41,002 bases of DNA. Origin: Magnetococcales bacterium HCHbin5 (lineage in GTDB: Bacteria > Pseudomonadota > Magnetococcia > Magnetococcales > Magnetaquicoccaceae). The stretch is from the NCBI GenBank assembly GCA_002753505.1, contig PEAG01000027.1:1-41002 (forward strand). Direction: 5' to 3'. This document shows, piece after piece, positions 1,147 through 20,011 of this stretch. Position 1 is the stretch's first letter. Every line of letters starts with the position of its first letter. A program made the translations under genes and the position numbers. Below the pieces are notes generated by a model that saw only the letters and a list, made by a program, of their open reading frames with translations, was not told the origin of the DNA and ran no database searches.

Positions 1147-1176
1147 AAAAAAGCCGCCTTGGTAGGCGGCTTTTTT
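1147..1176. terminator. Bidirectional rho-independent terminator
   Basis: AAAAAAGCCGCC, the loop TTGGTA, then GGCGGCTTTTTT form a perfect 12-base stem with a GC-rich core and a U-tract in both directions. It lies about 490 bases beyond the hsdR stop codon. It is the first strong terminator met by transcription of the minus-strand defence operon and would also end plus-strand transcription from the left. Confidence 0.85.
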
Positions 1177-1666: not shown

Positions 1667-4606
1667 TTATGCTGACTCAGCATAGGTCGCCGCAAAGATC
1701 GTCTCCGACAGCCACTTCTTGAAGGAGGGATTGTCGCTAAACTGCTTGAACAGCTCGGTGTGATCCGAGAGCAGATCGATGACCGCCCGCTCCAACGCCT
1801 TGTCGTGCTCAATCCGGGCGTTTTGCTTGTCCGAATTCCGCATCGCGTTTTGATACGCCTTGTCAGAGGACACCTTGGTCGGAAGTTCTTCCGCGATGAC
1901 CTTGCCGATTTTATCCGCATCCTTCCAATCAATGCTCCCGAACATTTCGTTGAAATTTCTGAGGATGTTGCTCAGAAAATCCAGCTCTGGCTCCGGTTTG
2001 CCGCCCCCGCCACCAGTGGGTACGGGACCGATTTCGGCATCTGCATCCGGCAATACGATGGCCATGGATGCTCTAGCTTCCACCCGGTAACTGTCCATGT
2101 CGATGGCTTCCAGAACACCCTTGGACAGGTCCTCTTCCTTCGGAGCTGGGAGTTTTGGAACCAGGAAGTTGAGGAAGATGGAGAGCTTTTCCCAATCGGC
2201 ATTGGAAAATGGGAGGATGGAGGCCAGAAAACCATAGGTGCGGGTAAACGCCTTGGCCTTGCCCTTGAAATCCACCTGCCCGTCTTCGTCCAGTTCTCCA
2301 GTGTAAACCGCCACGCAAGCGTCCAGGATCGGATCAAGCCTATCCCGATCTGCCCCGCCAAGGTACAACGTCACCAGATCCTCCACCTGTGCCCAGGCAT
2401 AGACCTGATAACCGTCCAAGCTCGATTTCAGGTCATGCAGTCTGTTCGGGTCGGTCTCCTCGCTGAGAATTGTGGTGCGGTAGTAGGACTCGAACGATTG
2501 GCGGATACCATCGGCATCGTTCATGAAATCGAGAACGAAGGTGTCGTGTTTCTGCGGATGGGCCCGGTTCAGACGCGACAGGGTTTGCACCGCCTTGATG
2601 CCGGATAGGGTCTTGTCCACGTACATGGTGTGGAGCAAGGGTTCATCGTAGCCGGTCTGGAACTTGTCCGCCACGATCAAAAACCGGTAGGGATCTCGCT
2701 TGAAGGTCTCCTCGATGGCGTTGCTGGGAAAACCGTTGAGCGAGGCTTCCGTCACCTTGTCACCACCGTATTCATGTTCACCCGAGAAGGCAACGATGGC
2801 CTGGTACGGGCTCTTGCGCTCTTTCAGGTAATCTTTGAAAGCATGACAATACTGGATAGCGCGGTGAATGCCGCTGGTCACCACCATGGCCCGGGCATGG
2901 CCGCCGACCTTGCGCTGGGCGACGACCTGATCGTGGAAATGGTCGATCATGATCTCCGCCTTCTGGCGGATGGCATGCTCGTGGGACTCGACGTAACGGC
3001 GAAGCTTCTTCTGCGCCCGTTTGGCGTCGAACCGGGGATCCTCCTCTATCGTCTTCATGAGGCGATAGTAGCTGTCCACCGGGGTGTACCGCTTGAGCAC
3101 GTCCAGGATAAACCCCTCCTGGATGGCCTGTTTCATGGTGTAGCTGTGGAAAGGAATATGGCGGATCTTGTCCCCTTCGGGAACAGGGACGCCAAAAACC
3201 TCCAGGGTTTTGTTCTTGGGTGTGGCGGTGAAGGCGAAGTAACTGGCATTGGGAAGAACCTTCCGAGACTCCATCAGACGGTTGATAGCGTCCTCGACCG
3301 ACTCTTCCTCCTCTTCGGCACCATTGGCGGCCAGGGCGATGTTCATCTTGGCGGAAGTGCGCCCGCCCTGACTGGAATGGGCCTCGTCGATGATGATGGC
3401 AAAGCTTCGCCCGCGATGCTCGTCACCGATTTCATCCAGGATGAAGGGGAACTTCTGCACCGTGGTGATGATGATCCGTTTGCCCGCCTTGAGTAAGGAA
3501 CGCAGATCACCGGATCGCTCGGCATGGCCCACCACCGAGGAGACTTGGGCGAACTGCTTGATGGTGTCGCGGATCTGCTTGTCCAGCACCCGTCGGTCAG
3601 TTACCACGATGACGGAGTCAAAGATGGGCTTGCCTCTGGTCTCCAACCCCACCAACTGGTTGCTGAGCCAAGCGATGGAGTTGCTCTTGCCCGATCCCGC
3701 CGAATGTTGGACCAGATAGCGGCGTCCAGCACCGGATGTTTGAGCATCTCCCAGGAGTCTGCGCACCACGTCCAGTTGATGGAAGCGGGGAAAGACCTGT
3801 TTCGGTGGCTTCCTGCGCCCCTTGTCGTCTTTCTCCTCCACTACCTGGGCGTAGTTCTCCAGGATGTCGGTGAGGTTCGGCTTGGCGAGTATCTCCTGCC
3901 AAAGATAGGCGGTTTTGAGTCCATTGGAATTCGGCGGGTTGCCCGCGCCGTCGTTCCACCCCCGGTTGAAGGGTAGAAACCACGATGCCTTGCCCTTCAG
4001 GTGGGTACACATGCGCACCTCGTGGTCGTCCACCGCGAAGTGGACCACGCACCGCCCGAACTGGAACAGCAGCTCCTTGGGGTCACGGTCGCGCTTGTAC
4101 TGCTCGATGGCATCCTCGACCGTTTGTTTGGTCAAGCTGTTCTTCAGCTCGAAGGTGGCGATGGGGAGACCGTTGATGAACAGGACCACATCCAGCGAGA
4201 GCTTGGAATCGTCCTTGGAGAAACGCAGTTGGCGGGTAACGCTGAACAGGTTGGCGGCGAACAGATCCACCGCTTTGGGGTTGCCGGGGGATGGTGTGCC
4301 GTAGAACAGTTCCACACTGGCCGGACGATGATTGATGCCCCGGCGTAACACGTCGATAACCCCACGTTTGGCGATGTCGCCCTGGAGGCGGTTCAGAAAC
4401 TGGAACCGCTTGGGACCGTCATCGGCCAGCCTCAGAGTGTCGCAGGTCGTGGGTTGGGTTGTCTGAAGAAAAGCCAGCAGCTTGGCCGTATCGACGGCGT
4501 GGTCGCGGTCGTAGTCCCTGGAATCACCGGCTACATAGCCCGCCTCGTCGATCAACGAGCGGACGATGAGGGCTTCCAGCCCCTTTTCGCTGGTGTCGGT
4601 ACTCAT
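1667..4606 (-). CDS. hsdR: Type I restriction enzyme, R (motor/nuclease) subunit
   Basis: About 979 residues, a normal HsdR length. HsdR joins HsdM and HsdS, translocates DNA using ATP and cleaves unmodified DNA at a distance. Visible in order: the N-terminal nuclease core with D139 and the E-L-K triad at 153-155; Walker A GSGKS at 304-308; the DEAH box at 407-410 (IIIDEAHSSQGG); FTATP of motif III; and QTLSRLNRAHP of motif VI. A helical C-terminal part follows. I chose ATG at 4606 because it overlaps the darG stop in an ATGA and gives the normal start MSTDTSEKGLEALIV; the open frame extends 11 codons further upstream without support. It is the last gene of the operon, so its expression depends on the genes before it. 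All catalytic motifs look intact. Confidence 0.95.
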   Translation of the reverse strand: MSTDTSEKGLEALIVRSLIDEAGYVAGDSRDYDRDHAVDTAKLLAFLQTTQPTTCDTLRLADDGPKRFQFLNRLQGDIAKRGVIDVLRRGINHRPASVELFYGTPSPGNPKAVDLFAANLFSVTRQLRFSKDDSKLSLDVVLFINGLPIATFELKNSLTKQTVEDAIEQYKRDRDPKELLFQFGRCVVHFAVDDHEVRMCTHLKGKASWFLPFNRGWNDGAGNPPNSNGLKTAYLWQEILAKPNLTDILENYAQVVEEKDDKGRRKPPKQVFPRFHQLDVVRRLLGDAQTSGAGRRYLVQHSAGSGKSNSIAWLSNQLVGLETRGKPIFDSVIVVTDRRVLDKQIRDTIKQFAQVSSVVGHAERSGDLRSLLKAGKRIIITTVQKFPFILDEIGDEHRGRSFAIIIDEAHSSQGGRTSAKMNIALAANGAEEEEESVEDAINRLMESRKVLPNASYFAFTATPKNKTLEVFGVPVPEGDKIRHIPFHSYTMKQAIQEGFILDVLKRYTPVDSYYRLMKTIEEDPRFDAKRAQKKLRRYVESHEHAIRQKAEIMIDHFHDQVVAQRKVGGHARAMVVTSGIHRAIQYCHAFKDYLKERKSPYQAIVAFSGEHEYGGDKVTEASLNGFPSNAIEETFKRDPYRFLIVADKFQTGYDEPLLHTMYVDKTLSGIKAVQTLSRLNRAHPQKHDTFVLDFMNDADGIRQSFESYYRTTILSEETDPNRLHDLKSSLDGYQVYAWAQVEDLVTLYLGGADRDRLDPILDACVAVYTGELDEDGQVDFKGKAKAFTRTYGFLASILPFSNADWEKLSIFLNFLVPKLPAPKEEDLSKGVLEAIDMDSYRVEARASMAIVLPDADAEIGPVPTGGGGGKPEPELDFLSNILRNFNEMFGSIDWKDADKIGKVIAEELPTKVSSDKAYQNAMRNSDKQNARIEHDKALERAVIDLLSDHTELFKQFSDNPSFKKWLSETIFAATYAESA

Positions 4607-5664
4607 ACCAGACCTGCCGGGATGGGGGGCGGCAGCCAACCCTTGCGGCCCAGGACACCCAGGGCGATGCGGATCTGGCGATCACTGAACAATCGTTTGC
4701 GGTCACTCCAGGCATAGATTCTGGCGATGACTTCTTCGGCGGTCTTTGCATGTTCCTTGCTAGCCACCCAATGAACAGTGGCGAGAAGTTCCATGCCGAA
4801 GGGGGTTTCAAAGCCTTCCACCAGATCGGTGACCCGGTCGAAACGGCTGCGTACATCGTCATCCTGATCCAGAACACGGGTGGCATCGTTCATGGCTCCC
4901 GGCACCAATTCCAACTGCTTTTCCGGGTTGTCGCCACCATCCGCGTATCCGGAGATGAAGTAGCCTTCCACTTCCTTGAGAACGTGGCGCAGGTTGTCGG
5001 CATAGGGGCCGTAGTGGTGCTTGACGTAGCGCAGGCGCAGCGGTTGCCCGGCCTCCTGCATGAAGTACATGAGCTTGTGGACCTCCAGTAAGGAGACGAA
5101 GGGGTCCATCAAGCCCCCCAGGTAGCGATGCATGAGTCCCACCAGAGCAGCCCGTCCTGAAGTCATTTTGGGCGGCTCTTTGGCCTTTGCCATCTGTTTG
5201 GCATCAGGCGCGCCCATAGGCTCGTAGACGATGACTTTAACCCCATCCAGCCCTGCCAGTACCTGGACGATCCGTTGCCGGACTTCCGGCCAGTTCAGGC
5301 CGCCCAAGCCGCTGCCCAGGGGCGGAATGGCAATGGAGCGGATTCCCCGGGCCTGGATCTCCCGGGCCAGGTCTGCCAGTCCCGCTTCCACATCCTCCAT
5401 GCGGCTGTTGCCGCGCCAATGGCGTTTGGTGGGAAAGTTGACGATGTAGCGCGGGGTGGTCAGGATGTGGGTATCGAAAATGAACACGCGACCGGGCACC
5501 ACCTCCTTGCGCTGGCAGGCGGACTCGTAGGCCTTGAAATTCTCTGGATAGGCCTTCTTGAACTGCAAGGCGATGCCCCGGCCCATAACCCCCACGCAGT
5601 TGACGGTGTTGACGAGGGCCTCAGCGTCATCGGCGAGGATGTCCCCGTTGGTGAACTCGATCAT
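4603..5664 (-). CDS. darG: DarG-like antitoxin: macrodomain ADP-ribosylglycohydrolase
   Basis: 353 residues. The N-terminal macrodomain (about 1-150) removes ADP-ribose that DarT places on DNA. It has the substrate loop NTVNCVGVMGRGIALQFK (19-36), the motif NFPTKRHWRG with K80, the residue corresponding to the catalytic lysine known from Thermus DarG, and the phosphate loop PPLGSGLGGLNW (114-125). The C-terminal part (about 170-353) is helical, with a HKLMYFMQEAG...HHYGPYADNLRHVL pattern like the DUF4065/Panacea-type C-terminal region of DarG, thought to bind and neutralise the toxin directly. The ATG at 5664 has its own strong ribosome-binding site (GGAGGAGA, about 5 bases upstream) in the 16-base gap after darT, whereas darT has only a coupled GTG. 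This would favour an excess of antitoxin (inference). It overlaps hsdR by ATGA. Confidence 0.92.
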   Translation of the reverse strand: MIEFTNGDILADDAEALVNTVNCVGVMGRGIALQFKKAYPENFKAYESACQRKEVVPGRVFIFDTHILTTPRYIVNFPTKRHWRGNSRMEDVEAGLADLAREIQARGIRSIAIPPLGSGLGGLNWPEVRQRIVQVLAGLDGVKVIVYEPMGAPDAKQMAKAKEPPKMTSGRAALVGLMHRYLGGLMDPFVSLLEVHKLMYFMQEAGQPLRLRYVKHHYGPYADNLRHVLKEVEGYFISGYADGGDNPEKQLELVPGAMNDATRVLDQDDDVRSRFDRVTDLVEGFETPFGMELLATVHWVASKEHAKTAEEVIARIYAWSDRKRLFSDRQIRIALGVLGRKGWLPPPIPAGLV

Positions 5665-5680
5665 GGCGTCTCCTCCCTTC

Positions 5681-6337
5681 TCAATAATACCATTCCGGCC
5701 TCGTCTTCACAGGCGGTTTGTGGGTTGCGGCGTTCAATGCCGCCCAGACCTGCTCCTGAATGGCCCGCGACGGAACTCCGATGCGCGCCACCAAATGCCA
5801 GGGGAAACGACCGTGCAGCAGAAATTCTGCCTGCTTGCCCTCCTTGATGTGGGCCGGGCGAAAATCGGTGGCAGCCACTGACTCCCAGTTGATCTGATCC
5901 AATTCTTCAACCTTGGAACGGAACGGAGCGTAATAAGCTCCTGCATTGGACAAGCTGAAGGCCCAACTATGACCGTTGGCGTTGGCCCAGGCAATGGTTT
6001 GATACAAATCGGCTTCCAGATGGAGAATCGGTCCCTGTCCGCCCCGGTAGGCGAGTTCGGGGTGGTTCCCCATGTAGATCAGATAGAGCATGATGGAACG
6101 CGGACAGAAGTAGAACGGCACGAAGTCGCCCACCCTGGTTCCGGGGTGGCAATCCACGGTCAACTCTTCCACGCGCCGCTTCTTGATGCTGGACATGCCG
6201 ATAGCCGCTGTCGGCCCACCCCGCCGGATCATCTCCGCATCTGAAACCAAGCCGCCACCGGCCAGGATGGCGGGCAAGTTGTCCACATGGGTGATGTGGT
6301 AGATCTTCGGCTGGGCGGGGGGCGCGCTCATGGTCAC
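5681..6337 (-). CDS. darT: DarT-like toxin: DNA thymidine ADP-ribosyltransferase
   Basis: 218 residues, normal DarT (DUF4433) length. DarT uses NAD+ to ADP-ribosylate thymidine in single-stranded DNA at short sequence motifs, blocking replication; some DarTG systems defend against phage. The N-terminal NAD-binding pattern YHITHVDNLPAIL (13-25), arginines at 54-55 of IKKRRVEEL, the PFYFCPRSIMLY segment (74-85) and KQAEFLLHGRFPW with E171, matching the catalytic glutamate, are all present. The toxin therefore looks active. The start is a GTG at 6337 overlapping the hsdS stop as GTGA; an ATG two codons later is an alternative. Lying between hsdS and hsdR, it can be made only together with the restriction system and antitoxin unless an internal promoter exists. 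Confidence 0.92.
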   Translation of the reverse strand: MTMSAPPAQPKIYHITHVDNLPAILAGGGLVSDAEMIRRGGPTAAIGMSSIKKRRVEELTVDCHPGTRVGDFVPFYFCPRSIMLYLIYMGNHPELAYRGGQGPILHLEADLYQTIAWANANGHSWAFSLSNAGAYYAPFRSKVEELDQINWESVAATDFRPAHIKEGKQAEFLLHGRFPWHLVARIGVPSRAIQEQVWAALNAATHKPPVKTRPEWYY

Positions 6338-7749
6338 GCCTCCACCTCTTCCGGCTCTACATCATCCTCCAAGAGGTTATCTCCGTTTTCTTCCTCCAGG
6401 TCTTCCAGCGACTCATCGGCATCGGGTAGGGTGAGCACCACGTCCCGTACATCCAGCTTTCCGGTAACGATATCGGCAATCAGGCGTTCGCGGTATTCAT
6501 AAATGAGCTCAACCTCTTTCTGGGCTTTACCGCTGGTTTGCTCGCTCTTGTGTGATTCTTCCTCAACAAATTTTAGGATTTCCTGCTGTTCCTGAAGTCC
6601 AGGCAGACCAATGGTGAATTCTTTCAGAAAGCTGATTGGCACACGTTGTTGGCCAGCTGCTCCCGTCATCGCCATCTCTCCACCTCGCCTGAATGCAGGT
6701 AACATCATTACTTGATAGAGGAATATTGGGTTAATTTTGGCCTGCGCCCTCAAAACAATGAATTCCGTCGTTCCAAACCCGATCTCAGTCTCAAGTTCAC
6801 CGAGATATGCTCCTTTTCCGTTTTCAAAGCAGGGTGTAATTTTGGCGACAACGACATCACCGCGCCTGAAATAGGTGTAACCGTTCCTCAGCGTTTGGAG
6901 CTTCCCTCGCTGGCTACAATCGATAATCCCTGTGGTTGATATACTCTCCATCGGGAGGAAAACAACTTCGTCTTCATCGCTGAACGTTGATGCACCCTCA
7001 GATTTTGATGGGTTGAAATGAGCAATTTGCTTGATTTTGTAAATCTCCCAATGCGCCGGAATTTCCGGCATCCAGTCTATACCGGTAGGCTTCATGGGGG
7101 CGTTGGGGTCCAGGCCCCGGGTGACCGCTTGGTTGATGATGGCTTGTTTCTGCTCGTTCAACAGGGCAATCAGCCGCCGCTTGTTGCGGATGAGGTGCGC
7201 AGTGCGGCGGCCATGGGCATCCAGGAAGTTCGCAATAGCTGTCTGTTCTTCGGACGGAGGAAAGGCTGACGGCATCTGCTTGAACTCGTCCCAGTACAGG
7301 CGGTTGCGGTCGGAGACGATGCCGCGTGAGAACTTGTTGACCTGCTGCATATAGTCAACGGTACGGAACAGGTATCCGTAATAGCGGGAATTTACCTCCA
7401 AAAAAGGCCGGGCCACCACGTAGGCCGGGCTGATTAGACCATCCACCGGGGCAACACCCACCGCGCCCTGCCACATGCGCATCATGTTGTAGGCGATATC
7501 TCCTTTCGCGGCGCGCTTGTACCTGCTGCGGTCGGTCATCTGTTGCTTGCGCATGCCGTTGTCCATATCCCGCACCCTGACCCCGGTGCGGAGGGAGACC
7601 TCCAGAATCGGCAACTCTTCATGGCCGGTGTCGTTTCTCTGGGCAAACAGACATCCATTCCGCCGCACGTCCCAGTGTTTCGGCACTTGGCCCAACCAGG
7701 GAAGGCCAGAGTCCCTCAATTGGGGATAAGGTTTCAGGTTAAAACTCAT
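6334..7749 (-). CDS. hsdS: Type I restriction-modification specificity subunit
   Basis: 471 residues. HsdS recognises a bipartite DNA site through two target-recognition domains. The start FNLKPYPQLRDSGLPWLGQVPKHW begins TRD1 (about 1-160); the first conserved helix follows, with PPSEEQTAIANFLDA (163-177) and NKRRLIALLNEQKQAIINQAV; the second half repeats the pattern (GIDWMPEIPAHWEIYKI, then TRD2 to about 400, then PGLQEQQEIL and a second helix). The C-terminal tail is very acidic (DADESLEDLEEENGDNLLEDD), which is unusual. DNA for TRD2 (about 6550-7060) is more AT-rich than the rest of the gene, which fits domain exchange. It overlaps the upstream NTPase gene by ATGA and darT downstream by GTGA. 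Confidence 0.93.
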   Translation of the reverse strand: MSFNLKPYPQLRDSGLPWLGQVPKHWDVRRNGCLFAQRNDTGHEELPILEVSLRTGVRVRDMDNGMRKQQMTDRSRYKRAAKGDIAYNMMRMWQGAVGVAPVDGLISPAYVVARPFLEVNSRYYGYLFRTVDYMQQVNKFSRGIVSDRNRLYWDEFKQMPSAFPPSEEQTAIANFLDAHGRRTAHLIRNKRRLIALLNEQKQAIINQAVTRGLDPNAPMKPTGIDWMPEIPAHWEIYKIKQIAHFNPSKSEGASTFSDEDEVVFLPMESISTTGIIDCSQRGKLQTLRNGYTYFRRGDVVVAKITPCFENGKGAYLGELETEIGFGTTEFIVLRAQAKINPIFLYQVMMLPAFRRGGEMAMTGAAGQQRVPISFLKEFTIGLPGLQEQQEILKFVEEESHKSEQTSGKAQKEVELIYEYRERLIADIVTGKLDVRDVVLTLPDADESLEDLEEENGDNLLEDDVEPEEVEA

Positions 7750-10550
7750 GCCAAAATCCCCTTCAGAGTCAAAACGCGCTCAGAAAGATCGTGCTTGAAC
7801 TTGCTATCGTGACATTTATTCAGGGCGTTTTCGGCTTCCCGCAGTGCATCGTCAATTTCTCCCTGTCGTTCGTATACTTCACTCAGCAATTTGTGGTAAC
7901 TCGAAACATGCGCTGTTGCCCTAGAATCTTGGTTGACCAATTCAAACGCCTTCAGAGCAGTTGCCAAGGCTCGATCGAATTCTTCAACTGCCAACTCCGC
8001 TTCGGCCTTGCGGTATAGAAGCCAATGGTCGATGCGATCAGCCGGAACCTTCCCGATGGTTTCGAGGGCTTTTTGAGGCATGTCGGCGATAATGAAGGCT
8101 TTGGCTGCAGCGCGGGCATCATAGGGTTTGAGCTGCTTGCTAGATGAAACGGCGTTAGCAAACTGAATGGATACATCGATGAGTCTATTGAAAAGCGACT
8201 TATCGACTTCCTTTTTTGCTGGGACTGCGGCATTTGTAAGTCCTTCACATGCATTCACCCATTGATTTCTGTCAACATTTGTTGGGGTTCTTGTGAGAGT
8301 CTCAGGCAGCCTTTGCACTAGAGTTAAACAGATTGACGGGTGATGATATCCAAATTTAGAGGTGAATGAGACGAACGCTTCGTAAAATTGGTCAAACCCT
8401 TCCATCGCGGACAGTGAAATGAGATCCGCAAGTTTTTGAACCTGAGCAGGATTTTCAGAGAGATCATTTACGACATTCCCATAAGATCTTAGCCTTGCAA
8501 GTGCCGCAAGAGAAACACGTAGCGGAACCGCTGATGCATCCTTTGTCATCCCATCTATCAAAGCGCGCAGGGATCTCTCCCCGGCTTCCTTGATATCACT
8601 GCTTACCCCATAAAGCATACCGAGATGCGCGATTTGCCCATGGGTTGCGTGCCACTCTGGTCTCATGTCGAGAAGCCGGGTGAAGCAACTGAGAGCCTCT
8701 TGGTGATTCCCACTTCGCCTTAGGGCTTTTCCACGGTGATGTAGAAGTTCTGCCTTCACATCGTCGTCAGCAGCTCTGGAAAGTGCTTTTTCAAATTGCT
8801 CAGCGCATTGACTGTAATATTCCTTCTTCTCGTCTTGACTCTCGATTGTGTAGGCGTGCGCCTCCTTGGCGTCGATGAGGCACATGACTGCCGGCAGCGG
8901 TAAACCAGGAGATATTTCCTTGGAATGAAGCTGTTCGTGCAATGCCTGTTTCGTATTGCTCTCCACTTGGAGGAGAGCGTAGGAGAGCCAGTCTAGGTCA
9001 TGCTCACCCCGTCGTTCGTGCTCGACCTGCAATGGGTTGAGGGCAAGGTGTATTTCTCGGAGCGCGCTCGGCGTCATTTCTCCCTTTTGACCTCCAACGT
9101 ACTCCTCGACGACAATGGCCAGTTCGTTTCCATCAACGCGATCTCGCACGGCCATGCAAACTAAATCATGAATTCTGGCAACGCCCGGAGTGCTGGTCGG
9201 CAACAAGATGGAAAGTTGCTGAAGTGTCCGCGAATTGGAAATGCCAATGAATTTACGCAAGAATTCCAGGTCATGTATTATCAAACCTGAATTGGCAATC
9301 TTTTTGAGTGCCTTAAGCGCACTAGGTTCCAAACGCTTCAATATGTTCCCCATGATCGACTGACTATCACGCCCTGTGATGTTACTTGGAAAGGCCAAGA
9401 TTTCTTGGTAAAGGTCGTTCGATGGAACGTAGTATTGAACAATGAAAGCGTGGGCTGTCGACAGGATCAGCGGACTGAATCTACAGAATTGGATGAATTT
9501 TTTCGCTACATCTGAGGCGCTGTCATAGTCTTCCCCGAGGATTCTGTATGCCGTTTCAATGGAAATCTCAGGAATTAGCAAACACCCTTCACCTGCCATG
9601 ATTGCTGACTGGGAGGTCACTAGGACAACGCCGCCCTTTTGAAACCCGTCCCGAAGTTCATCAAAATCTGTCTGGCCTATCGGCCTTTCGAGACCATCAA
9701 TGACTAGAATAGTCTTGCTGGTGTTGAATAGGCCAACGATATTGATGGGTGTCCCCCCTCGTGATCTTTGAATTGAACTGAGAGAAGTATCCTTTAGCCA
9801 ATCTTCTCCAGAGATCCAAATATAATTTTCGAACGCAATTGCATGGTTGCGGACAAAACTGATAGCTGCTTGGGTTTTTCCTGATCCACTTACACCGTGA
9901 AGTGCGCAAACAGGATGCGTCCCAAAATGCCTAGCCAGGGCATCGCCAATCCCTTGATCATGGATATGGCCATCACATGGCGCGGGCAGCTTTCCGTAGT
10001 ATTCGTAGTTATCAAGATTCTGAGAGAATCCAGGGAAAAACTGTCTGTAAAAAGCCGCGTAATCAGGGTTGTTTGTCGATTGCTGGTAGACTTCCTTTGC
10101 CAGTTCACGGGCATCAAGGAATACGACTTTCCCGCTATGGGCCTGCGCTATAGAAGTCGCATTGAATTTTGCGCGGAAGGATGGCGGCTCTTCCTGGTTG
10201 GTAATCAGGTAAATTTTATCAGGCCCTTGAGGCTGGCGATGGCCAAGTGCATGTTGGATATCACCTTCAAACTTAGGAAATTGAGAAGGATTCTTGCTGG
10301 TTATTTTTTTGCATTCAAAGCAGTCCTCCTCTGTATTATACTCAGCGACAACCGTCGAGCCTTGACTGAATGTGTCAACAGTAGACTTAACAGGCTTGTA
10401 ATTCTTGTTGATGCCGTGGTGGACCATTTTTTGGCCTTCGAGCACAGAGACAACGTTGTGCCCAACGAGTTCAAGCTCAGCCGCACCCAAGCATGCAATC
10501 TCGCCTATCAACTCCTTGATGACTCGTTTTTTGATGTGCTCGTGTATCAT
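7746..10550 (-). CDS. STAND-type NTPase with nuclease-like N-terminus and TPR C-terminus
   Basis: 934 residues. Residues about 1-160 look like a PD-(D/E)xK nuclease fold: a likely metal-binding E-C-K at 79-81, then a KIYLITNQ strand and VVFLDARELAKEV as in restriction-endonuclease-like domains. The catalytic aspartate is uncertain. A P-loop follows, GVSGSGKT at 219-226, Walker B ILVIDG at 281-286, a sensor strand VVLVTSQS, and RFSPLILS (357-364), resembling the GLPL motif of NB-ARC/STAND ATPases. The C-terminal half (from about 560) is helical with TPR-like repeats (for example AELLHHRGKALRRSGNHQEA). This effector-ATPase-repeat layout matches Avs/STAND immune sensors, in which the repeats detect a phage protein and the N-terminus acts as nuclease. 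It overlaps hsdM and hsdS by 4 bases each. The gene is much more AT-rich than its neighbours (22 G/C in 60 at 9241-9300, against 33 in 60 at 11281-11340 in hsdM), suggesting separate acquisition. Target and activity are unknown. Confidence 0.85.
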   Translation of the reverse strand: MIHEHIKKRVIKELIGEIACLGAAELELVGHNVVSVLEGQKMVHHGINKNYKPVKSTVDTFSQGSTVVAEYNTEEDCFECKKITSKNPSQFPKFEGDIQHALGHRQPQGPDKIYLITNQEEPPSFRAKFNATSIAQAHSGKVVFLDARELAKEVYQQSTNNPDYAAFYRQFFPGFSQNLDNYEYYGKLPAPCDGHIHDQGIGDALARHFGTHPVCALHGVSGSGKTQAAISFVRNHAIAFENYIWISGEDWLKDTSLSSIQRSRGGTPINIVGLFNTSKTILVIDGLERPIGQTDFDELRDGFQKGGVVLVTSQSAIMAGEGCLLIPEISIETAYRILGEDYDSASDVAKKFIQFCRFSPLILSTAHAFIVQYYVPSNDLYQEILAFPSNITGRDSQSIMGNILKRLEPSALKALKKIANSGLIIHDLEFLRKFIGISNSRTLQQLSILLPTSTPGVARIHDLVCMAVRDRVDGNELAIVVEEYVGGQKGEMTPSALREIHLALNPLQVEHERRGEHDLDWLSYALLQVESNTKQALHEQLHSKEISPGLPLPAVMCLIDAKEAHAYTIESQDEKKEYYSQCAEQFEKALSRAADDDVKAELLHHRGKALRRSGNHQEALSCFTRLLDMRPEWHATHGQIAHLGMLYGVSSDIKEAGERSLRALIDGMTKDASAVPLRVSLAALARLRSYGNVVNDLSENPAQVQKLADLISLSAMEGFDQFYEAFVSFTSKFGYHHPSICLTLVQRLPETLTRTPTNVDRNQWVNACEGLTNAAVPAKKEVDKSLFNRLIDVSIQFANAVSSSKQLKPYDARAAAKAFIIADMPQKALETIGKVPADRIDHWLLYRKAEAELAVEEFDRALATALKAFELVNQDSRATAHVSSYHKLLSEVYERQGEIDDALREAENALNKCHDSKFKHDLSERVLTLKGILA

Positions 10551-12679
10551 GCTCGTTTCCCGATCACGTCATCCAACAGCCCATCGGTTTCTTTCTCCAA
10601 AGCCCGGATATCAGCCTCGATCTCCTCCAAGGTGCGAAGCGGCTGGGGTTTGTAGAAATGCCGGGTAAAGGATATCTCGTAGCCAATGGTCGTCTTCCCG
10701 GCATCGATCCAGGCATCCGGGGCATGGGGCAACACCTCCCGGCGAATGAAGGCCTCGATACCGCCTTCTTCCAGAGAGGGTATCTGTTCGGTATCGCGCA
10801 GTTCGCTGTCCGGTTCGTACTCCACCACCATCGGTTTTCCGTTGATGGTGCGGTGGTATTGGCCGTGCAAGGCGTCGCGCTGGGCATCCGCCCCCGCCTT
10901 GGCCCTGGCAACCATTCTGATAACCGGTTCGGCCTCTGGATCCTTCACACCCAGGGCCGTCATGAGCAGTTTCTGACGTTTGGCCGTCATCCGCACTCCC
11001 TGAACTTTAGCAGTGGACTCGACCTGCTCCAGAAAACGGTTGAAATCATAGTGAGGACCAGAACCGAACGACGCGACGAGACTCTCCACCAAATCGGCCA
11101 GATCACCTTCCGCCACATCGGCGCAGCTTTTCCTGAACCTCCGCAGCACCCCTGCCGACAGATCCACCCTCAAGCGCAACGGGCGTTCCACCGTCACCTT
11201 CCAGTAGCCGAACGCCTTGTTGGGAAAAACCTTTGATTGCTCACCTTCCTCTCGTTTAAGGAAGGCGTCGCAGATGCGCCGGAGGTCATCCGGGCCGAGT
11301 TCACAGTTCTTCTTGCCCAGATTTTTTCGCAGCGGCTTGAACCACGCCGTGGCATCGATCAACTGCACCTTGCCCTGTCGTTCCGGGCTTTTCCGATTGG
11401 AAAGAACCCAGATGTAGGTAGCGATGCCAGTGTTGTAGAAGATGTTAAGAGGCAAGGCGATGATGGCTTCCAGCCAGTCGTTCTCGATAATCCAGCGGCG
11501 GATGTTGCTCTCGCCCGACCCCGCATCCCCGGTGAACAGAGAGGAACCGTTGTGAACCTCAGCGATCCGACTGCCCAGTGGAGAAGCCTTCTTCATCTTG
11601 CTCAACATGTTGGCCAGGAACACCATCTGGCCGTCGCTGGAGCGGGTGATCAGGCTGTATTCCGGATTGCCGCCATGTTCGATGATGAAACGCGGGTCGC
11701 GAAGTTCTTTCTTTCCCCCAATGCGATCCAGATCAGTTTTCCAAGATTTGCCATAAGGTGGATTGGATAGCATGAAGTCGAATTCCCGCGAGGGAAACGC
11801 ATCGGCGGAAAGGGTGGAGCCAAACTTCATGTTCTCCGCCTCGACGCCTTCGCCCTTGAGGATCAGGTCCGCCTTGCTGATGGCAAAGGTCTCCGGGTTG
11901 ACCTCCTGGCCATAGAGGTGAACCGAGACCTCCTTGCCATGTTCCGCCGCCAGTTTGCCAAGGGTCTCCTCGGCGACCGTCAGCATGCCGCCCGTGCCGC
12001 AGGCCCCGTCATAAACCAGATAGGTGCCGGACTGGATCGCGTCGGCAACAGGCATGAAAATCAAGTAGGCCATCAACTCCACAACGTCGCGAGGGGTGAA
12101 ATGCTCACCAGCCTCTTCGTTGTTCTCCTCGTTGAAACGGCGGATCAACTCCTCGAAGATCGTCCCCATAGAGTGATTGTCCAGACCGGGCAGACGGACA
12201 GACCCATCCTGGTGCAGAACCGGTTTCGGGCTCAGGTTGATCGAGGTATCGAGGAATTTTTCAATCAGATAGCCAAGGACATCTGCTTCCACCAACGTTG
12301 GGAGTTGGTTGCGGAACTTGAATTTTTCCAACACCTCCTGGACGTTCGGGGAGAATCCATCCAGATATGCCTCGAAGTCTGCTCTGAGCTGTTGTTGCTT
12401 GGCCCGGTAGGTCAGGTCGCGCAGGCGAAAGGGGGAGGCGTTGTAGAATGCTTCGCCCGAAGACTGGCGCAAGGCCGCATCCTGGTTAGCCACTCCAGCT
12501 TTGTCGAGTTGCGCCTTCATGCGGAGCACCGCGTCCTTGGTCGGCTCCAGGACGGCGTCCAGTCGCCGGATGACCGTCATGGGCAAAACTACGTCCCGGT
12601 ATTTTCCACGAACGTAGACGTCCCGCAGTACGTCGTCGGCAATGCCCCAGATGAAATTGCTGATATTCAGGCTGCTCAC
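10547..12679 (-). CDS. hsdM: Type I restriction-modification methyltransferase subunit
   Basis: About 710 residues from a GTG at 12679. HsdM transfers a methyl group from S-adenosylmethionine to adenine N6 in the site chosen by HsdS. Seen: the N-terminal SLNISNFIWGIADDVLRD and VVLPMTVIRRLDAVLEPTK helices, GEHFTPRDVVELM before the catalytic domain, motif I DGACGTGG (about 224-231) and motif IV NPPY (306-309). The protein is some 200 residues longer than E. coli HsdM, with an added C-terminal region. I prefer GTG at 12679 because GGGAGG lies 6 bases before it and the protein then begins like other HsdM proteins; the open frame reaches an ATG at 12730 whose ribosome-binding site is too close. 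A GATAAT near that ATG could be a -10 element. It is the first gene of the six-gene operon. Confidence 0.93.
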   Translation of the reverse strand: MSSLNISNFIWGIADDVLRDVYVRGKYRDVVLPMTVIRRLDAVLEPTKDAVLRMKAQLDKAGVANQDAALRQSSGEAFYNASPFRLRDLTYRAKQQQLRADFEAYLDGFSPNVQEVLEKFKFRNQLPTLVEADVLGYLIEKFLDTSINLSPKPVLHQDGSVRLPGLDNHSMGTIFEELIRRFNEENNEEAGEHFTPRDVVELMAYLIFMPVADAIQSGTYLVYDGACGTGGMLTVAEETLGKLAAEHGKEVSVHLYGQEVNPETFAISKADLILKGEGVEAENMKFGSTLSADAFPSREFDFMLSNPPYGKSWKTDLDRIGGKKELRDPRFIIEHGGNPEYSLITRSSDGQMVFLANMLSKMKKASPLGSRIAEVHNGSSLFTGDAGSGESNIRRWIIENDWLEAIIALPLNIFYNTGIATYIWVLSNRKSPERQGKVQLIDATAWFKPLRKNLGKKNCELGPDDLRRICDAFLKREEGEQSKVFPNKAFGYWKVTVERPLRLRVDLSAGVLRRFRKSCADVAEGDLADLVESLVASFGSGPHYDFNRFLEQVESTAKVQGVRMTAKRQKLLMTALGVKDPEAEPVIRMVARAKAGADAQRDALHGQYHRTINGKPMVVEYEPDSELRDTEQIPSLEEGGIEAFIRREVLPHAPDAWIDAGKTTIGYEISFTRHFYKPQPLRTLEEIEADIRALEKETDGLLDDVIGKRA

Positions 12680-12800
12680 GCCTCGCCTCCCTTTGCCCGT
12701 TGGCGGGTAATAATTTGGTTCATTATCCATTTCCCTCTGCCAGACAAAGTTCAGAAGTCTTACCTTCGATTGCGCAGAACAGTCTGCCTGTGCCAGGATT

Positions 12801-12823
12801 GTTCCCGCTCTCGCAGGAATAAC
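12801..12823. repeat. Imperfect palindromic repeat, copy 1
   Basis: The 23 bases read GTTCCCGCTCTCGCAGGAATAAC and form an imperfect hairpin (about 8 of 11 pairs). It resembles the dispersed bacterial palindromes of the type GTCATTCCCGC...GCGGGAATGAC. It lies upstream of hsdM and beyond the reverse transcriptase gene. Confidence 0.5.
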
Positions 12824-12852: not shown

Positions 12853-12878
12853 GTCATGCCCACGAGGACGGGCGTGAC
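12853..12878. repeat. Imperfect palindromic repeat, copy 2, at the end of the reverse transcriptase gene
   Basis: GTCATGCCC (12853-12861), an 8-base loop and GGGCGTGAC (12870-12878) form a 9-base stem with one G-U pair. The reverse transcriptase stop codon (12854-12856) lies within it, so the last codons of that gene are supplied by the repeat. It may act as a terminator-like or processing hairpin between retron and hsd operon, but no U-tract follows. Confidence 0.6.
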
Positions 12879-13813
12879 GAAGGGTTCATGGACGAGGCGG
12901 CAATCGAGGATATTCTCTTCATTTCTAAAGTTAATTGCTTGGCTTTTGGTGTCCATCTCGGATCGATCTGAGCAGCTTCATTAATTCTTCCGATGAGAGA
13001 AGGAAGAAGTTTCAATTTTTCCTCATCACTAAGAGCTGCCTGCAACTGTGCATATCCATCAACAATTTTTTTGTGTCGAATGTTTGGTAGCTTAATCCCT
13101 GAATTGGTCACAACCACTCCAGTGACAATGCGAGGCATGTTTGATGAAAAGTAGTGAATCTTATGAGACTTAAGCCCATGACTACGGATGATGACTCGAA
13201 CATCAGAGAGAAATTTCCTTGTTACCGTTTCTCCAGAGAAGCACATATCATCAACATAGCATGTCATAACCGCTCCTCGACCCGCAGACAGGTGTGCAAT
13301 TTCCTCGAACATGTCGCGATGGGCATAATAAGAGAGGATTGGACTGACACTACTGCCCGTTGCTAGATGACCATAAACGGTAAGAACTTTCGATAGCAGT
13401 GCTGCGACATCAGGACTACATTCCATAGTTTTCAGAAAAAATCGCTTAACAGCGTTTATTGTAACGGAAGGGAAAAATTTTTTGATGTCTACCTTAACCA
13501 TTGGGACATTGGCAGCGTGAGCCTTTGCGTTTGATAAATAGGAATGTCCCTTAATAGCAGAGTGCAGATAATCTGGCGTATCAATCCTGGCAAGAAGATC
13601 ACAAACACGCCTGTGGATAACCTGTAAGCGATGTTTGGGGCATTGAACTGGACGAGGTTTCCCACCACTTGTTTCGAACAGCTTGTAATTATCAACTGGA
13701 TCATTCCTGGCAAACACCTCAAGTTCATTAAGATCTGCGTCAAGAATCTTGGACAGTTTCTGTCTTGATTTTAATTTAAAAAACGGGGACTGGTCCAATG
13801 CATACCGTTTCAC
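12854..13813 (-). CDS. Retron-type reverse transcriptase
   Basis: 319 residues, a typical retron RT length. Retron RTs copy part of a structured RNA (msr-msd) into DNA that stays joined to the RNA; many defend against phage together with an accessory protein. Family marks visible: NAKAH at 95-99 (retron NAxxH), VKVDIKKFFPS with the first catalytic aspartate at 109, HLATGSSVSPILS (149-161), the active site YVDD at 186-189, and VTG at 230-232, the retron-specific triplet. The GTG start at 13813 overlaps the XRE gene stop as GTGA, so the two are translationally coupled. The last 15 or so residues (serine/proline-rich) come from a palindromic repeat and are probably not native. The gene is AT-rich (25 G/C in 60 at 13021-13080). 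No fused effector domain is seen. Confidence 0.9.
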   Translation of the reverse strand: MKRYALDQSPFFKLKSRQKLSKILDADLNELEVFARNDPVDNYKLFETSGGKPRPVQCPKHRLQVIHRRVCDLLARIDTPDYLHSAIKGHSYLSNAKAHAANVPMVKVDIKKFFPSVTINAVKRFFLKTMECSPDVAALLSKVLTVYGHLATGSSVSPILSYYAHRDMFEEIAHLSAGRGAVMTCYVDDMCFSGETVTRKFLSDVRVIIRSHGLKSHKIHYFSSNMPRIVTGVVVTNSGIKLPNIRHKKIVDGYAQLQAALSDEEKLKLLPSLIGRINEAAQIDPRWTPKAKQLTLEMKRISSIAASSMNPSSRPSSWA

Positions 13814-14139
13814 ACATCACCTCTTTGCTCAGTATGATCATCAATATCAGCAATTGTGACAACCCAATCAAGCATTTTTACTACCTTCTCAGCAACAAAC
13901 ACTCTAGTATCGTCAGCGGTCGATATAGTACCGGTTCCAGTCCTTTCCGCGAAAAACAAGAGAGAAGATGTCGGCATGTTGAAGTAAGATGCATACTTAT
14001 CAAGCACATCCATTGAAACTTTTTTGCGACCTGATTCAATTTCAGAAATATAAGATTTTGATAGACCCATTCCTTCTGAAAGCTGGGTCTGGCTTCTATG
14101 GTGAAATAGTCGAACCAATTTCAGGGCTTTATTTAACAT
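13810..14139 (-). CDS. XRE-family helix-turn-helix protein, retron partner
   Basis: 109 residues. Residues about 5-62 form an HTH_3/XRE domain: LVRLFHHRSQTQLSEGMGLSKSYISEIESGRKKVSMDVLDKYA in two continuous pieces, with the recognition helix SKSYISEIESG. The C-terminal part (65-109) is short and of unknown fold. ATG at 14139 follows AGGAGA by about 6 bases. It is coupled to the reverse transcriptase gene by a GTGA overlap. Some retron types carry an HTH protein as their only accessory gene; it may repress the operon, act as effector, or bind the msDNA. Which one cannot be told from sequence. Confidence 0.88.
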   Translation of the reverse strand: MLNKALKLVRLFHHRSQTQLSEGMGLSKSYISEIESGRKKVSMDVLDKYASYFNMPTSSLLFFAERTGTGTISTADDTRVFVAEKVVKMLDWVVTIADIDDHTEQRGDV

Positions 14140-14340: not shown

Positions 14341-14349
14341 AGCTTACTC

Positions 14350-14400
14350 CTCTAAATGCACCCAGGGCGAAATTGCTCTGAGCGTCGCATACATTTAGAG
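14350..14400 (-). promoter_or_regulatory. Leader hairpin overlapping a ribosome-binding site
   Basis: CTCTAAATG and CATTTAGAG form a perfect 9-base inverted repeat 51 bases end to end. On the minus strand the 3' arm runs straight into the GGAG that serves the 57-codon ORF, so the stem would hide part of the ribosome-binding site. It could be an attenuator, an operator for the XRE protein, or part of the retron RNA leader. Confidence 0.4.
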
Positions 14401-14434
14401 ATAGAAGTCAGACGAGATTTACTCCCAACCTTCC

Positions 14435-14464
14435 AGCCAAAATCGTCTCGCAACGATTTTGGCT
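14435..14464. repeat. Perfect 12-base hairpin
   Basis: AGCCAAAATCGT, a 6-base loop CTCGCA, and ACGATTTTGGCT pair without mismatch. There is no clear U-tract on either side, so termination would be weak. It may belong to a dispersed repeat family or be a bidirectional terminator remnant. Confidence 0.6.
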
Positions 14465-14658
14465 TTACCCCCCCTACCCAACCCACTGCTGGCCGACGGA
14501 CCCGATCCCATGCGACCATCGACACAGACAACAGTGCCGGGGGGGGAGATGTAGAGACCGAGGCCTCCGCGAACCGTCGAAACAGTTCCATGGACAATGC
14601 GACATCTTCCCTACCAAGCATATGCGAACTCTATCAGCAAAATGTTGCACTGGTCAAG

Positions 14659-14687
14659 ATAAAAATTCGCTGGAAGCGAATTTTTAT
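14659..14687. terminator. Probable bidirectional terminator
   Basis: ATAAAAATTCGCT, the 3-base loop GGA, and AGCGAATTTTTAT form a perfect 13-base stem with U-rich ends in both directions. It could end transcripts leaving the retron region rightward or shield the retron from prophage transcription from the right. Confidence 0.6.
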
Positions 14688-14883
14688 GGCGTGATTGCCT
14701 TGACCCAGTAGTGGCTTGATTTTGTGTCGGATGGACGGCATGATTGTCAGCGGCATTGGGAACCCATGTAAACGCTTGCATTGGTGATCCTGGCACCAAC
14801 AACGGGGGGAAACTCTTAACCTGTCGCACATAAATCAACCAACCGCACAACAAACACAAACCATTGGAATTGAAGGCAAATAC

Positions 14884-15272: not shown

Positions 15273-17456
15273 TCAGTTCCCTACGTTGAACGAATACTCT
15301 GCCGCATCCGCCAGCGACTGCCCCCCGCCTCCAAACTGATTAAACGCTGCGAATTTCATATAGATCGTCTTGCCGACCAGTGCCGGATCGTAGGCGTATC
15401 TAAAGATGGCCCCATCGCAGCGGACGAACGGACTTTGACTGGGGTGTGCCTTGATCGGGGTGCCGTATAGTCCGCGCCGCAGATAGCCACCCAGAGTATA
15501 TTGGTGACTGCCCGTCAGCGTGGTGGTGGAATAGGCGATAAATTCACCATCCACCCATGCCAGGGTGGCCCGGTTGTCAGCGTCAGAGATGGTGCCGGAG
15601 GTCAGCGCACCGGAGGACTCGGACAGGTCAACCGAACACGTGTGGGTGGTGTCTGGGTCCGTGCCGGATGCCATCAGGTCGGTCAGAAAGCCATGCCGGG
15701 CCGGGGAGACGATCTCACCAATTTTCTTGTAATTTGTGCCGTCGGAGGATAACCACACGGAACATCCACCATAATTGTCCCCACCCGACACGGCCACCCA
15801 GATCTCATACCCGGTTGCGGCCAGTGCCTTGGGAGCCTCGAACAATACGGGGGTGTTGACCGCGCCGGAGGGTTGGTTGTAGGCCGGGACATAGCCGCCA
15901 ACCGGCTGGTGCGGGTAGGTCGCAGAGCTGAACACCCCTTGCGGAGCATCTTCGGCTTCGATGGACAGAACGCCATCTTCATCCTCCTCGATGCTCAGGA
16001 TCCGAACCGGCGTTTTGTCCAGCCCTGCAGCCGGATCCGTGAGGGTGACAAGGTCCGTTGGCTCCAGCAGACAGTGTTTCCAGCCGAGCTTAAAGTTGTA
16101 GGTATTGCGCACATATTGCATCCGTTGGAGAATGTTCTGCGCCACTGCCCTGGCCACCACAGGTGATTTGATCTCGTGCGCCTTGATGGAGTCCATCGTC
16201 CGCAGGCCGAACAGATCGATGGCCACCAGATCCTTGGCCTCGGCCACCTCGGTGTTGAACTGGTTGCTGGCGTTCAGAAATTCGACCTTTACGTGGTTGT
16301 AGGCATCGACCGATGGCCGCCTGGATATAGTCACCGGATCCTCGTTGCCTGAGACGATGAAGTCATCCTCCGTCAGTTCGTAGACGGGCGTGACGTCTGG
16401 CGTATAGGTGGTCTGGTGGCCGGTGACGACGGCGTCGCCGAAGGGAGTGATCTTCAGCATCCCTTCGGAAAAGTAGACCCCGGAATTCGTCAGCTTCATC
16501 AATCGGGTGAGGATGGCACTGGCCTCTTCCTGGGCCGAATAGACTGGCGACAGAAAGAGGCCGTTGGCCGTGCAGTACCGGTAGTATTGGGTCCAGTCGC
16601 CGATGTTCGCCATGGGGAAACCCAGGCCATAATGAGGATTGGTCAGCAAGTCGAGCAGGATGTCCTTGGGGTGCGCGTCGAAGAAGCCATTGACTGCGTC
16701 AAAGGAAAGCTGGCCGATGACATCAAAATTCAGGTTCGGCAGTGCCGTACCGGAGCCCAACTGCCAATCCAAAGCCGCCGCGTAGGCGGTGCCACGATAG
16801 TGCAGGGCTTGCTCGGGGTGCTTGCTGGTCAGGTAGGTCCATGGGGTTTGCAGATAGTCGCCATTGAACACCGTCATGACAGAAGAACTGCTGTTGATGG
16901 CATTGAAATTGTAGCTGATTTGTACCTGGACATTGGCATACTGGGTGGCAAAATAGTAGGTGCCAGCGACGACGGTGAAGTCGGTGCCGTTTAGCAGAGT
17001 GGCCGAGGTCTCGACATTCACACAGGAAATGTGGCTGGTCCACTGGGTGCCGTGAGCAACCGTCACCTGATGCGAACCGGAAACCAGATGCAACTCGTTC
17101 CAGGCCGCCGAAGGGGTGATCACCTCCGACAGGTTGGCCGGATCGGGCTTGTAGTCACGGTTGCTCCAGATGCCATCGATGCCGGTGATCGGCCCCTCGC
17201 AGAGACCAAAGACGAAGGATGCGGTGTAGGTGTACGTGGTACTGACGACGGTGGTTCCACCACCGCCTTTGCCACCGACATCCTGCGAGGTGGTATGGGC
17301 GATGGCTTTGAAATCCCCATACCAGAGCAGGTTGCCGGACACCCTGGCCCGGCCATAGACAATCGGAATCGCGGCACCATATATGCTCCCCTGGAAGGTG
17401 ACGCCGTTGGCGCGGGGCTCACTATTGTTGATGACTTTTCCGTCCTTGCCGCTCAT
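15273..17456 (-). CDS. Phage tail tip / host-specificity protein (J-like)
   Basis: About 727 residues. It belongs to the lambda J / GTA orfg15 type of tail-tip protein, which closes the tail and contacts the cell. The N-terminus (GVTFQGSIYGAAIPIVYGRARVSGNLLW in two pieces) and the glycine-rich turn DVGGKGGGG followed by a Tyr/Thr-rich strand are typical. The middle carries LTEDDFIVSGNEDPVTISRR and DAYNHVKVEFLN, then HCLLEPTDLVTLTDP and RILSIEEDEDGVLSIEAEDAP, the conserved hub barrel region. The C-terminus has fibronectin-like and carbohydrate-binding-like strands. I chose ATG at 17456 because it overlaps the NlpC/P60 stop as ATGA; the frame extends five codons further. It is the last tail gene of the operon. 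Confidence 0.88.
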   Translation of the reverse strand: MSGKDGKVINNSEPRANGVTFQGSIYGAAIPIVYGRARVSGNLLWYGDFKAIAHTTSQDVGGKGGGGTTVVSTTYTYTASFVFGLCEGPITGIDGIWSNRDYKPDPANLSEVITPSAAWNELHLVSGSHQVTVAHGTQWTSHISCVNVETSATLLNGTDFTVVAGTYYFATQYANVQVQISYNFNAINSSSSVMTVFNGDYLQTPWTYLTSKHPEQALHYRGTAYAAALDWQLGSGTALPNLNFDVIGQLSFDAVNGFFDAHPKDILLDLLTNPHYGLGFPMANIGDWTQYYRYCTANGLFLSPVYSAQEEASAILTRLMKLTNSGVYFSEGMLKITPFGDAVVTGHQTTYTPDVTPVYELTEDDFIVSGNEDPVTISRRPSVDAYNHVKVEFLNASNQFNTEVAEAKDLVAIDLFGLRTMDSIKAHEIKSPVVARAVAQNILQRMQYVRNTYNFKLGWKHCLLEPTDLVTLTDPAAGLDKTPVRILSIEEDEDGVLSIEAEDAPQGVFSSATYPHQPVGGYVPAYNQPSGAVNTPVLFEAPKALAATGYEIWVAVSGGDNYGGCSVWLSSDGTNYKKIGEIVSPARHGFLTDLMASGTDPDTTHTCSVDLSESSGALTSGTISDADNRATLAWVDGEFIAYSTTTLTGSHQYTLGGYLRRGLYGTPIKAHPSQSPFVRCDGAIFRYAYDPALVGKTIYMKFAAFNQFGGGGQSLADAAEYSFNVGN

Positions 17457-20000: not shown

Positions 20001-20011
20001 GGACCGCTCCT

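Follow-up and report, generated by a model that had tools for sequence, protein, structure and literature searches.

A prophage-borne type I restriction operon of a Magnetococcales bacterium as a likely chassis for exchangeable defence genes

We analysed positions 1 to 41,002 of contig PEAG01000027.1 from Magnetococcales bacterium HCHbin5 (assembly GCA_002753505.1), a stretch hereafter called the window. It carries an operon for a type I restriction-modification (RM) system in which a gene for a STAND-type NTPase and the toxin-antitoxin pair darTG lie between the restriction genes, with a type VI retron at its head and a prophage beyond (Table 1). We consider it likely that this prophage-borne operon is a chassis for accessory defences, with two fixed slots and a head that are open to exchange, and that its modules are co-expressed while each acts by its own mechanism. 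In the window, slot 1 (between hsdM and hsdS) holds the STAND NTPase, slot 2 (between hsdS and hsdR) holds DarTG, and the retron would stand in place of a WYL-domain regulator. Gene content, gene order, motifs, the exchange of slot genes and the prophage setting are read directly from the genomes compared; the independence of the modules we infer.

An earlier sequence-only reading had described six genes in the order hsdM-STAND-hsdS-darT-darG-hsdR, and both this order and the shared minus strand hold, as do the junctions: 4-nt overlaps at hsdM/STAND, STAND/hsdS, hsdS/darT and darG/hsdR, and 16 nt between darT and darG. For hsdM the ATG at 12730 is used here in place of the in-frame GTG at 12679 of that reading, and its otherwise good description of the operon overlooked the upstream retron and the prophage setting. 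Judging from gene spacing, the six genes are probably one transcript. Terminator and promoter scans of the window were compared with shuffled sequence. The terminator scan listed no minus-strand site between the reverse transcriptase (RT) gene and hsdM and three weak ones inside darT, STAND and hsdR; its 12 sites in the window are fewer than in shuffles (mean 16.2), and the hairpin downstream of hsdR falls outside its list owing to the scan's tail rule. Promoter-like matches (15 vs 8.8 in shuffles, on both strands) were given no evidential use. No Rfam match was obtained in the window at gathering thresholds. To the left of the operon, near the contig end, a GC-rich repetitive stretch with recurring words was noticed by eye (200-760, plus strand).

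Table 1 Features of the window discussed in the text.
Feature	Position	Strand	Remarks
hsdM, type I methyltransferase subunit, 727 aa	10547..12730	-	alternative in-frame GTG start 12679
STAND-type NTPase with C-terminal TPRs, 934 aa, cargo slot 1	7746..10550	-	
hsdS, specificity subunit	6334..7749	-	
darT, DNA ADP-ribosyltransferase toxin, cargo slot 2	5681..6337	-	
darG, macro-domain antitoxin, cargo slot 2	4603..5664	-	
hsdR, restriction and translocase subunit	1667..4606	-	
Terminator-like hairpin downstream of hsdR	1147..1176	-	13-bp stem ending in U6, z -3.55
Probable 3' stump of WYL-domain regulator gene, overlapping hsdM start	12723..12801	-	
Type VI retron reverse transcriptase	12854..13813	-	PADLOC RT_VI 3.1e-87; YVDD at 186
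Type VI retron HTH protein	13810..14139	-	PADLOC HTH_VI 1.8e-30
Small basic, hydrophobic peptide ORF of retron, 57 aa	14167..14340	-	
Probable retron non-coding RNA region	14345..14720	-	hairpins; zero Rfam matches at gathering thresholds
Prophage head-tail module	15273..39855	-	PHROGs
Tail tip	15273-17471	-	PHROGs
Tape measure	20767-25014	-	PHROGs
Major tail	25698-26606	-	PHROGs
Head/protease	36342-38450	-	PHROGs
Portal	38389-39855	-	PHROGs

Pfam, PADLOC and NCBIfam families together with the 4-nt overlaps bear out the earlier description of tightly packed genes of defence type. Domains and motifs point to a type I RM system with M, S and R subunits: HsdM contains Pfam HsdM_N and N6_Mtase, an NPPY motif at residue 323 and a PADLOC MTase_I match (1.5e-251); HsdS contains Pfam Methylase_S in two stretches and matches PADLOC Specificity_I (6.6e-103); HsdR contains Pfam HSDR_N and SWI2_SNF2, matches the solved EcoR124I HsdR (1.6e-12), and displays nuclease residues of PD-(D/E)xK type (D139..ELK) along with the AGSGKS and DEAH motifs of a DEAD motor. 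PADLOC models match HsdR as well, whereas matches to the NCBIfam hsdM and hsdR models lie below the curated cut-offs. As in other members of the family, HsdMSR would methylate self DNA, and translocate and cut unmodified DNA. The slot 2 genes are assigned to DarTG2 from a DarT domain with its Glu and from a DarG with macro and C-terminal domains. DarT matches Pfam DarT (2.7e-62) and the solved DarT 7omv (7.2e-34) and passes the NCBIfam DarT equivalog cut-off; Glu171, which we take to be the catalytic residue, lies within a QAEF stretch. DarG passes the equivalog cut-off of NCBIfam antitoxin_DarG (9.5e-142) and matches PADLOC DarG (1.9e-139), Pfam Macro and the solved structures 5m31 (4.8e-56) and 7yk3_B (7.1e-28, the latter over residues 167-336). 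The target may be thymidine, as for DarT2, rather than guanine, as for DarT1, to judge from the name of the Pfam DarT family, thymidine-modifying, and from 7omv as closest structure. From what is known of the family, DarT would, once DarG is insufficient, ADP-ribosylate single-stranded DNA at thymidines as phage or host replicates and thereby stop replication, while DarG would remove the ADP-ribose mark and hold DarT.

Exchange at the slots is most apparent among the closest relatives. A search with hsdR across 48 genomes of the order gave nine matches in eight genomes, seven with at least 84% identity and two with 42%. Genome G047 was added through hsdM in a 61-genome search, giving eight loci of the lineage in total (hsdR 84-93% or hsdM at least 80% identical). 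Slot 1 contains STAND in the window and in G029, and in G046 C8 a truncated STAND that runs into hsdS. A GmrSD_N-domain protein takes this position in G010 and Abi_2 does so in G013 (by Pfam) and in G047 (80% identical to that of G013); the slot is empty in G036 and unreadable in G046 C72. Of the seven loci with a readable slot 1, four accordingly have another gene or none in place of STAND. Slot 2 holds intact darT and darG in five of the eight loci (window, G029, G010 and both of G046) and is decayed in the other three, with darT lost or broken in each: both genes are cut short in G036, darG is shortened and darT lost in G013, and G047 retains a whole darG with only the last codons of darT, fused to a shortened hsdS. 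In G036 and G013 hsdM, hsdS and hsdR remain open despite the lost or broken darT. G047 is damaged as a whole locus, since its hsdM is split into two frames, its hsdS is cut short and its hsdR continues past the contig edge. Two of the eight loci, the window and G029, show the exact six-gene order, and a third has it with a deletion.

Divergence values likewise separate the cargo from its surroundings. Two darTG alleles are present, with DarT 44-48% and DarG 58-61% identical between them and 85-92% within. Between the window and G029, the synonymous divergence (dS) of STAND (0.50) is similar to that of hsdR (0.55) and hsdM (0.68), while darT (1.38) and darG (1.17) are far more divergent; in this pair of loci STAND has therefore descended together with the restriction genes, and darTG was swapped in one of the two, so that the STAND of G029 is about as old as its hsdM and hsdR, yet sits beside a different darTG allele. 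Between the window and G046 C72, dS is 0.50 for hsdR, 0.57 for darT and 0.37 for darG. The nonsynonymous divergence (dN) of STAND, 0.126 vs 0.036-0.046 in a single pair, indicates faster protein change, yet is well below dS, as it is for darT and darG within an allele. Of the synteny that the sequence-only reading had proposed to test, the fixed positions are found: cargo in relatives is not scattered but sits at the same two slots, an observation made without a statistical test. The set of genes varies, however, and the absences that were named in advance as counter-evidence occur in part of the loci. That this set of genes is one coordinated system is not supported, given the exact order in two of eight loci, the loci that lack STAND or an intact darT, free-standing STAND relatives at 45-48% identity and the swapped darTG allele in G029; a chassis with exchangeable cargo has the better support.

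The same slots carry other genes in more distant loci. We surveyed 61 loci of the hsdM family on viral contigs, taking gaps of at least 300 bp as possible cargo and assigning names to cargo from Pfam or PADLOC matches or from its identity to other cargo. Identified genes encode a DUF1016/YhcG nuclease, Abi_2, SIR2 with HerA, SLFN_AlbA_2, DUF3800, DUF4268, RhuM, HEPN, a CAP12-type TIR, an M78 peptidase, DUF4145, Hypoth_Ymh, and GmrSD_N with PRTase-CE beside a NADAR-HsdS frame. darTG occurs in six of these loci (L129, L130, L131, L134, L157 and L170, the first three being near copies), and STAND in the slots of none of the 61. A gap need not hold a gene, as the one of 814 bp in L146 lacks any open reading frame (ORF) of 80 aa. 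A set of twenty scanned proteins included one DarT and three without any family; the 268-aa slot 2 protein of L110 matched no family either. Distant type I loci of the order carry RhuM, SLFN_AlbA_2, FRG, or an AAA ATPase with a subtilase in a slot, and one distant type I locus of the phylum carries a KAP NTPase. The AAA ATPase and subtilase pair was seen between hsdS and hsdR in the scanned L045 (4566-8181), and L046 (3913-7522) looks alike. In L108 (6776-10008, scanned) a PRTase-CE gene occupies slot 1, and behind it comes a frame in which a NADAR domain is fused to HsdS; L111 (6794-10008) looks alike. PRTase-CE and NADAR may be a toxin that modifies bases and the eraser of its mark, a counterpart to the DarT-DarG pair. 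The 2024 preprint of Payne et al. reportedly derived PDC and HEC candidates through 'guilt-by-embedding'. Defences embedded in other defences and candidates of this kind are likewise presented in PMC12988326, and slot cargo is the kind of embedding that others have already used to find defences. Several cargoes of relatives belong to such PADLOC families (PDC-S02, PDC-S11, PDC-S35, PDC-M32A and HEC-05), whereas the STAND protein of the window has only a weak TPR match there.

DarTG is the cargo with the clearest precedent. Using DarG at a threshold of 1e-50, we obtained 19 matches in 18 of 398 genomes of the phylum; eight of the matches belong to this RM lineage. Two further loci have a far type I family: L089 with hsdM-hsdS-darT-darG-hsdR and L090 with darT-darG-hsdR at a contig edge, both followed after hsdR by similar ORFs of 235-236 aa. 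The place of these ORFs is presumably that of the M48 gene in the island described below. Around the remaining nine of the 19 matches no hsd match was found within the stretches read. A plasmid-record search with DarT matched 19 records. In L085 (1053-7194) DarTG is flanked by a PIN-TPR-GreABC-domain protein and by a gene with a below-cut-off NucS/HSDR_N-like match. In enteropathogenic E. coli E2348/69, the RRDM island has the order RptR-hsdM-hsdS-darT2-darG2-hsdR-M48 (PMC12255303, 2025), and because darTG has the same position there, its nesting in a type I system is already known, just as the principle of embedded defences is published. Among 54 rptR-linked type I loci the authors of the RRDM study counted 12 with darTG2, and in four genomes a different gene pair occupied that site (PMC12255303). 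The island resembles the window in having DarTG2 between hsdS and hsdR and a regulator at its head; as described there, it differs in having no STAND gene and no retron, RptR as regulator, and the metallopeptidase M48 after hsdR. We did not meet an RptR head or an M48 gene in the window, which has a retron head and only ORFs below 100 aa from hsdR to 655 (minus strand), RptR and M48 not having been searched by sequence. The RM families are probably different too, as the hsdR of the RRDM-like L089 and L090 is about 22% identical to our queries, although the E. coli proteins were not themselves compared.

DarTG recurs in this slot even where the RM families have diverged, which would also suit wiring of DarTG, STAND or both as a guard that senses anti-restriction and kills the cell only once restriction is disarmed. 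The model for such wiring is PrrC, an anticodon nuclease embedded in the type I locus EcoprrI, which the enzyme keeps in check until phage Stp sets it free (PMC3874165 and PMC12707154). As in the window, a toxin gene lies inside a type I operon, but there the RM enzyme itself restrains PrrC, whereas the DarT of the window has its own antitoxin gene, and in known DarTG2 it is DarG itself that controls DarT (PMC12255303). We regard a guard as unlikely, given in addition the nine phylum DarG matches without a neighbouring hsd match, the open restriction genes of G036 and G013 without a working darT, and the STAND relatives that occur without RM genes. Alternatively, DarTG might chiefly stabilise the restriction operon and the prophage as an addictive toxin-antitoxin pair, defence being secondary. 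The pair directly precedes hsdR with a 4-nt overlap, so that loss of the operon would entail loss of the antitoxin; it is prophage-borne, and the decayed pairs of G047, G013 and G036 have lost or truncated darT but retain all or part of darG. Toxin-first decay is, however, expected for any toxin-antitoxin pair, and RRDM with DarTG2 protects against phages, although the accessible passages did not separate DarTG from RM in this respect (PMC12255303); we hold addiction as the chief role to be very unlikely.

Several observations weigh against a chassis with exchangeable cargo as we propose it. Cargo-bearing slots are the minority state on viral contigs, because 37 of the 49 readable gaps of slot 1 and 22 of the 39 of slot 2 are below 300 bp (12 and 17, respectively, reach that length). 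STAND was found in three of the 398 phylum genomes at values past 1e-60, and all three loci have it exclusively in the hsdM/hsdS slot. DarTG or its remnant is present in slot 2 of all eight lineage loci and again in L089, L090 and RRDM, and its pairing with RM may therefore be functional. Since the flanks of G036 and G013 gave no matches to the phage queries, not all loci are shown to be prophage-borne. Finally, the relatives are draft genomes, and some of the gene breaks may for this reason be assembly faults.

The cargo of slot 1 is assigned to STAND NTPases from a P-loop (GVSGSGKT at 219), a Walker B-like ILVID at 281 and sensor repeats recognised as Pfam TPR. Foldseek placed a STAND-TPR protein, 6mfv_A, at the top for the full-length model (E 1.5e-5, TM 0.20), a fold match on a model of low confidence (mean pLDDT 62.5), and no STAND or NACHT model of Pfam matched the protein. 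The sequence-only reading had called it nuclease-like, which we could not confirm: searches of its N-terminal domain against Pfam, NCBIfam, PADLOC and solved structures gave no family above the cut-off, nuclease families included, the best signal was NUMOD-like (15.9 bits vs a cut-off of 27), and AlphaFold with three sequences modelled the domain unusably. Residues E27, D59, E70, K93 and D97 of the N-terminus are invariant across eight sequences, and plasmid relatives at 20-22% identity keep them; the pattern would be compatible with a PD-(D/E)xK nuclease whose lysine has moved, a fold for which the family searches and models give no backing. The label Avs-like (AVAST) was also dropped, as PADLOC returned just a weak TPR model (E 0.0011). 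By analogy with other STAND proteins, this one would bind a phage trigger via its TPR part, oligomerise via the NTPase and switch on its N-terminal domain, both trigger and effector being presumed. Relatives at 45-48% identity occur in Vibrio, Sinorhizobium and on an Enterobacter plasmid; no hsd match was found within the loci of the first two, and no hsd genes are annotated around the third. Three scans of viral contigs yielded no STAND relative. In L002 (6434-12799) and L098 (2232-8670), STAND-TPR relatives adjoin an ATPase and UvrD-like helicase pair, which we take, there and beside the Vibrio relative, to be Gabija-like.

At the head of the operon, the retron is assigned to type VI from its RT_VI and HTH_VI proteins in PADLOC. 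Its HTH and RT genes overlap by 4 nt, and 123 nt separate RT from hsdM on the same strand. With the known type VI retrons it shares RT and HTH proteins and an ncRNA-like region that is conserved; unlike the known type, this one heads a type I operon and sits on what is probably the stump of a WYL gene. In G029, a 300-aa WYL-domain protein precedes hsdM with an overlap of 8 nt. A 35-nt stretch 36-71 nt upstream of the window hsdM is 77% identical to and colinear with the end of that gene. With 1000 shuffles each, the 71-nt stretch gave no alignment as good and the whole gap gave two; in translation, the ends read AEGNG* in the window and TEGNG* in G029. It is therefore most likely that a WYL regulator at the operon head gave way to the retron, with G029 as the one regulator-bearing relative. 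The corresponding stretch of G036 aligns with that of the window, though not significantly (134 and 225 of 1000 in the same shuffle test). The gap between RT and hsdM folds into strong hairpins (z -3.55), which could end or process the transcript. A 111-nt stretch around the RT end was considered as a dispersed repeat and rejected, as no second copy was found in the genome at E 0.001. Operator-like words common to the hsdM gap and the region upstream of the retron amounted to two overlapping 9-mers and were given no weight.

The notion that retrons of this kind are regular partners of type I systems found no support. The other three genomes with a relative (L043, L094 and L095, the last with RT split in two frames) gave no hsd match within the stretches read, and the eight plasmid loci opened, from 80 RT-match plasmid records, have no annotated hsd genes in the incomplete PLSDB tables. 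The solitary retrons in those three genomes would suit the view that the genes of the window are mere defence-island neighbours whose nesting has no regulatory or functional meaning, but the six operon genes overlap at start and stop codons, share their orientation and keep two slots across loci, and we find that view extremely improbable. In all 12 type VI-like retrons examined (the window, L043, L094, L095 and L100-L107), of which the window alone was scanned for RT and HTH in PADLOC and the other 11 were taken as type VI-like from RT similarity and an adjoining HTH gene, a small peptide ORF precedes the HTH gene. These ORFs start with ATG, comprise 47-58 codons, follow a Shine-Dalgarno-like word and end 17-66 nt before the HTH gene; the limits, fixed after the peptides had been seen, were reached by 7 of 3600 shuffles. 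The peptides have a basic N-terminal start and a mostly hydrophobic end, weakest in L102 (peak hydropathy 0.59), and none of the six scanned has a Pfam family (best E 0.07). In six folds the ribosome-binding site lies wholly or partly within a hairpin (z -1.1 to -2.6, weak singly), and the ncRNA region together with the peptide ORF aligns with the G021 retron over 530 nt at 69% identity. We propose the peptide as a candidate effector of type VI retrons; no paper on their mechanism or on the peptide was found in the open-access literature, a coverage outside which most subscription papers lie. A bolder and rather unlikely scenario is that the retron captured the operon, the WYL regulator being displaced and restriction, STAND and DarTG brought under the promoter, HTH protein and RNA of the retron in one transcript of four defence systems, such that phage disturbance of msDNA or HTH would release a membrane-active peptide and derepress the downstream battery.

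The prophage head-tail module makes up most of the window outside the operon and retron, which lie directly 3' of the tail-tip gene on the same strand. In a PHROGs scan of ten large ORFs between 15273 and 39855, nine were matched at 1e-5 or below. The late genes of the prophage span 15273-41001 (minus strand), the head/protease protein being 41-45% identical to Rhodobacter and Pseudomonas phage proteins among its best matches, and a PAPS-reductase-like gene (phrog_424) lies within the structural module (31505-32518, minus strand). In G029, the operon borders at hsdR on phage tail genes of the opposite strand, one of them a 53% homologue of a phage protein of the window. A prophage of this family also occurs in G045, with portal and head 69% and 74% identical; the type I system that follows it there belongs to another family, its hsdM and hsdR being 85% and 84% identical to those of L031, and has other cargo. 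In a collection that was itself selected for viral contigs, four of the seven loci found by hsdR (L108, L110, L111 and L114) have tail or endolysin genes in opposite orientation after hsdR, and 10 of the 61 loci found by hsdM matched a small set of phage structural queries. A phage-record search with hsdR gave 15 records, all below 60% identity and mostly unannotated.

The novel pieces of the system are this STAND family, a retron that most likely displaced a regulator and the recurrent small peptide ORF of type VI-like retrons. Together, the loci provide a comparative set in which one restriction lineage has exchanged two slots and its head while hsdM and hsdR were retained, and with which wiring of cargo to restriction, as in PrrC, becomes testable against mere co-expression. 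For type VI retrons, the head of the operon with its recurrent peptide ORF supplies a concrete effector candidate. Prophages carry such chassis beside their tail genes, and the slots are a source of candidate defence genes.

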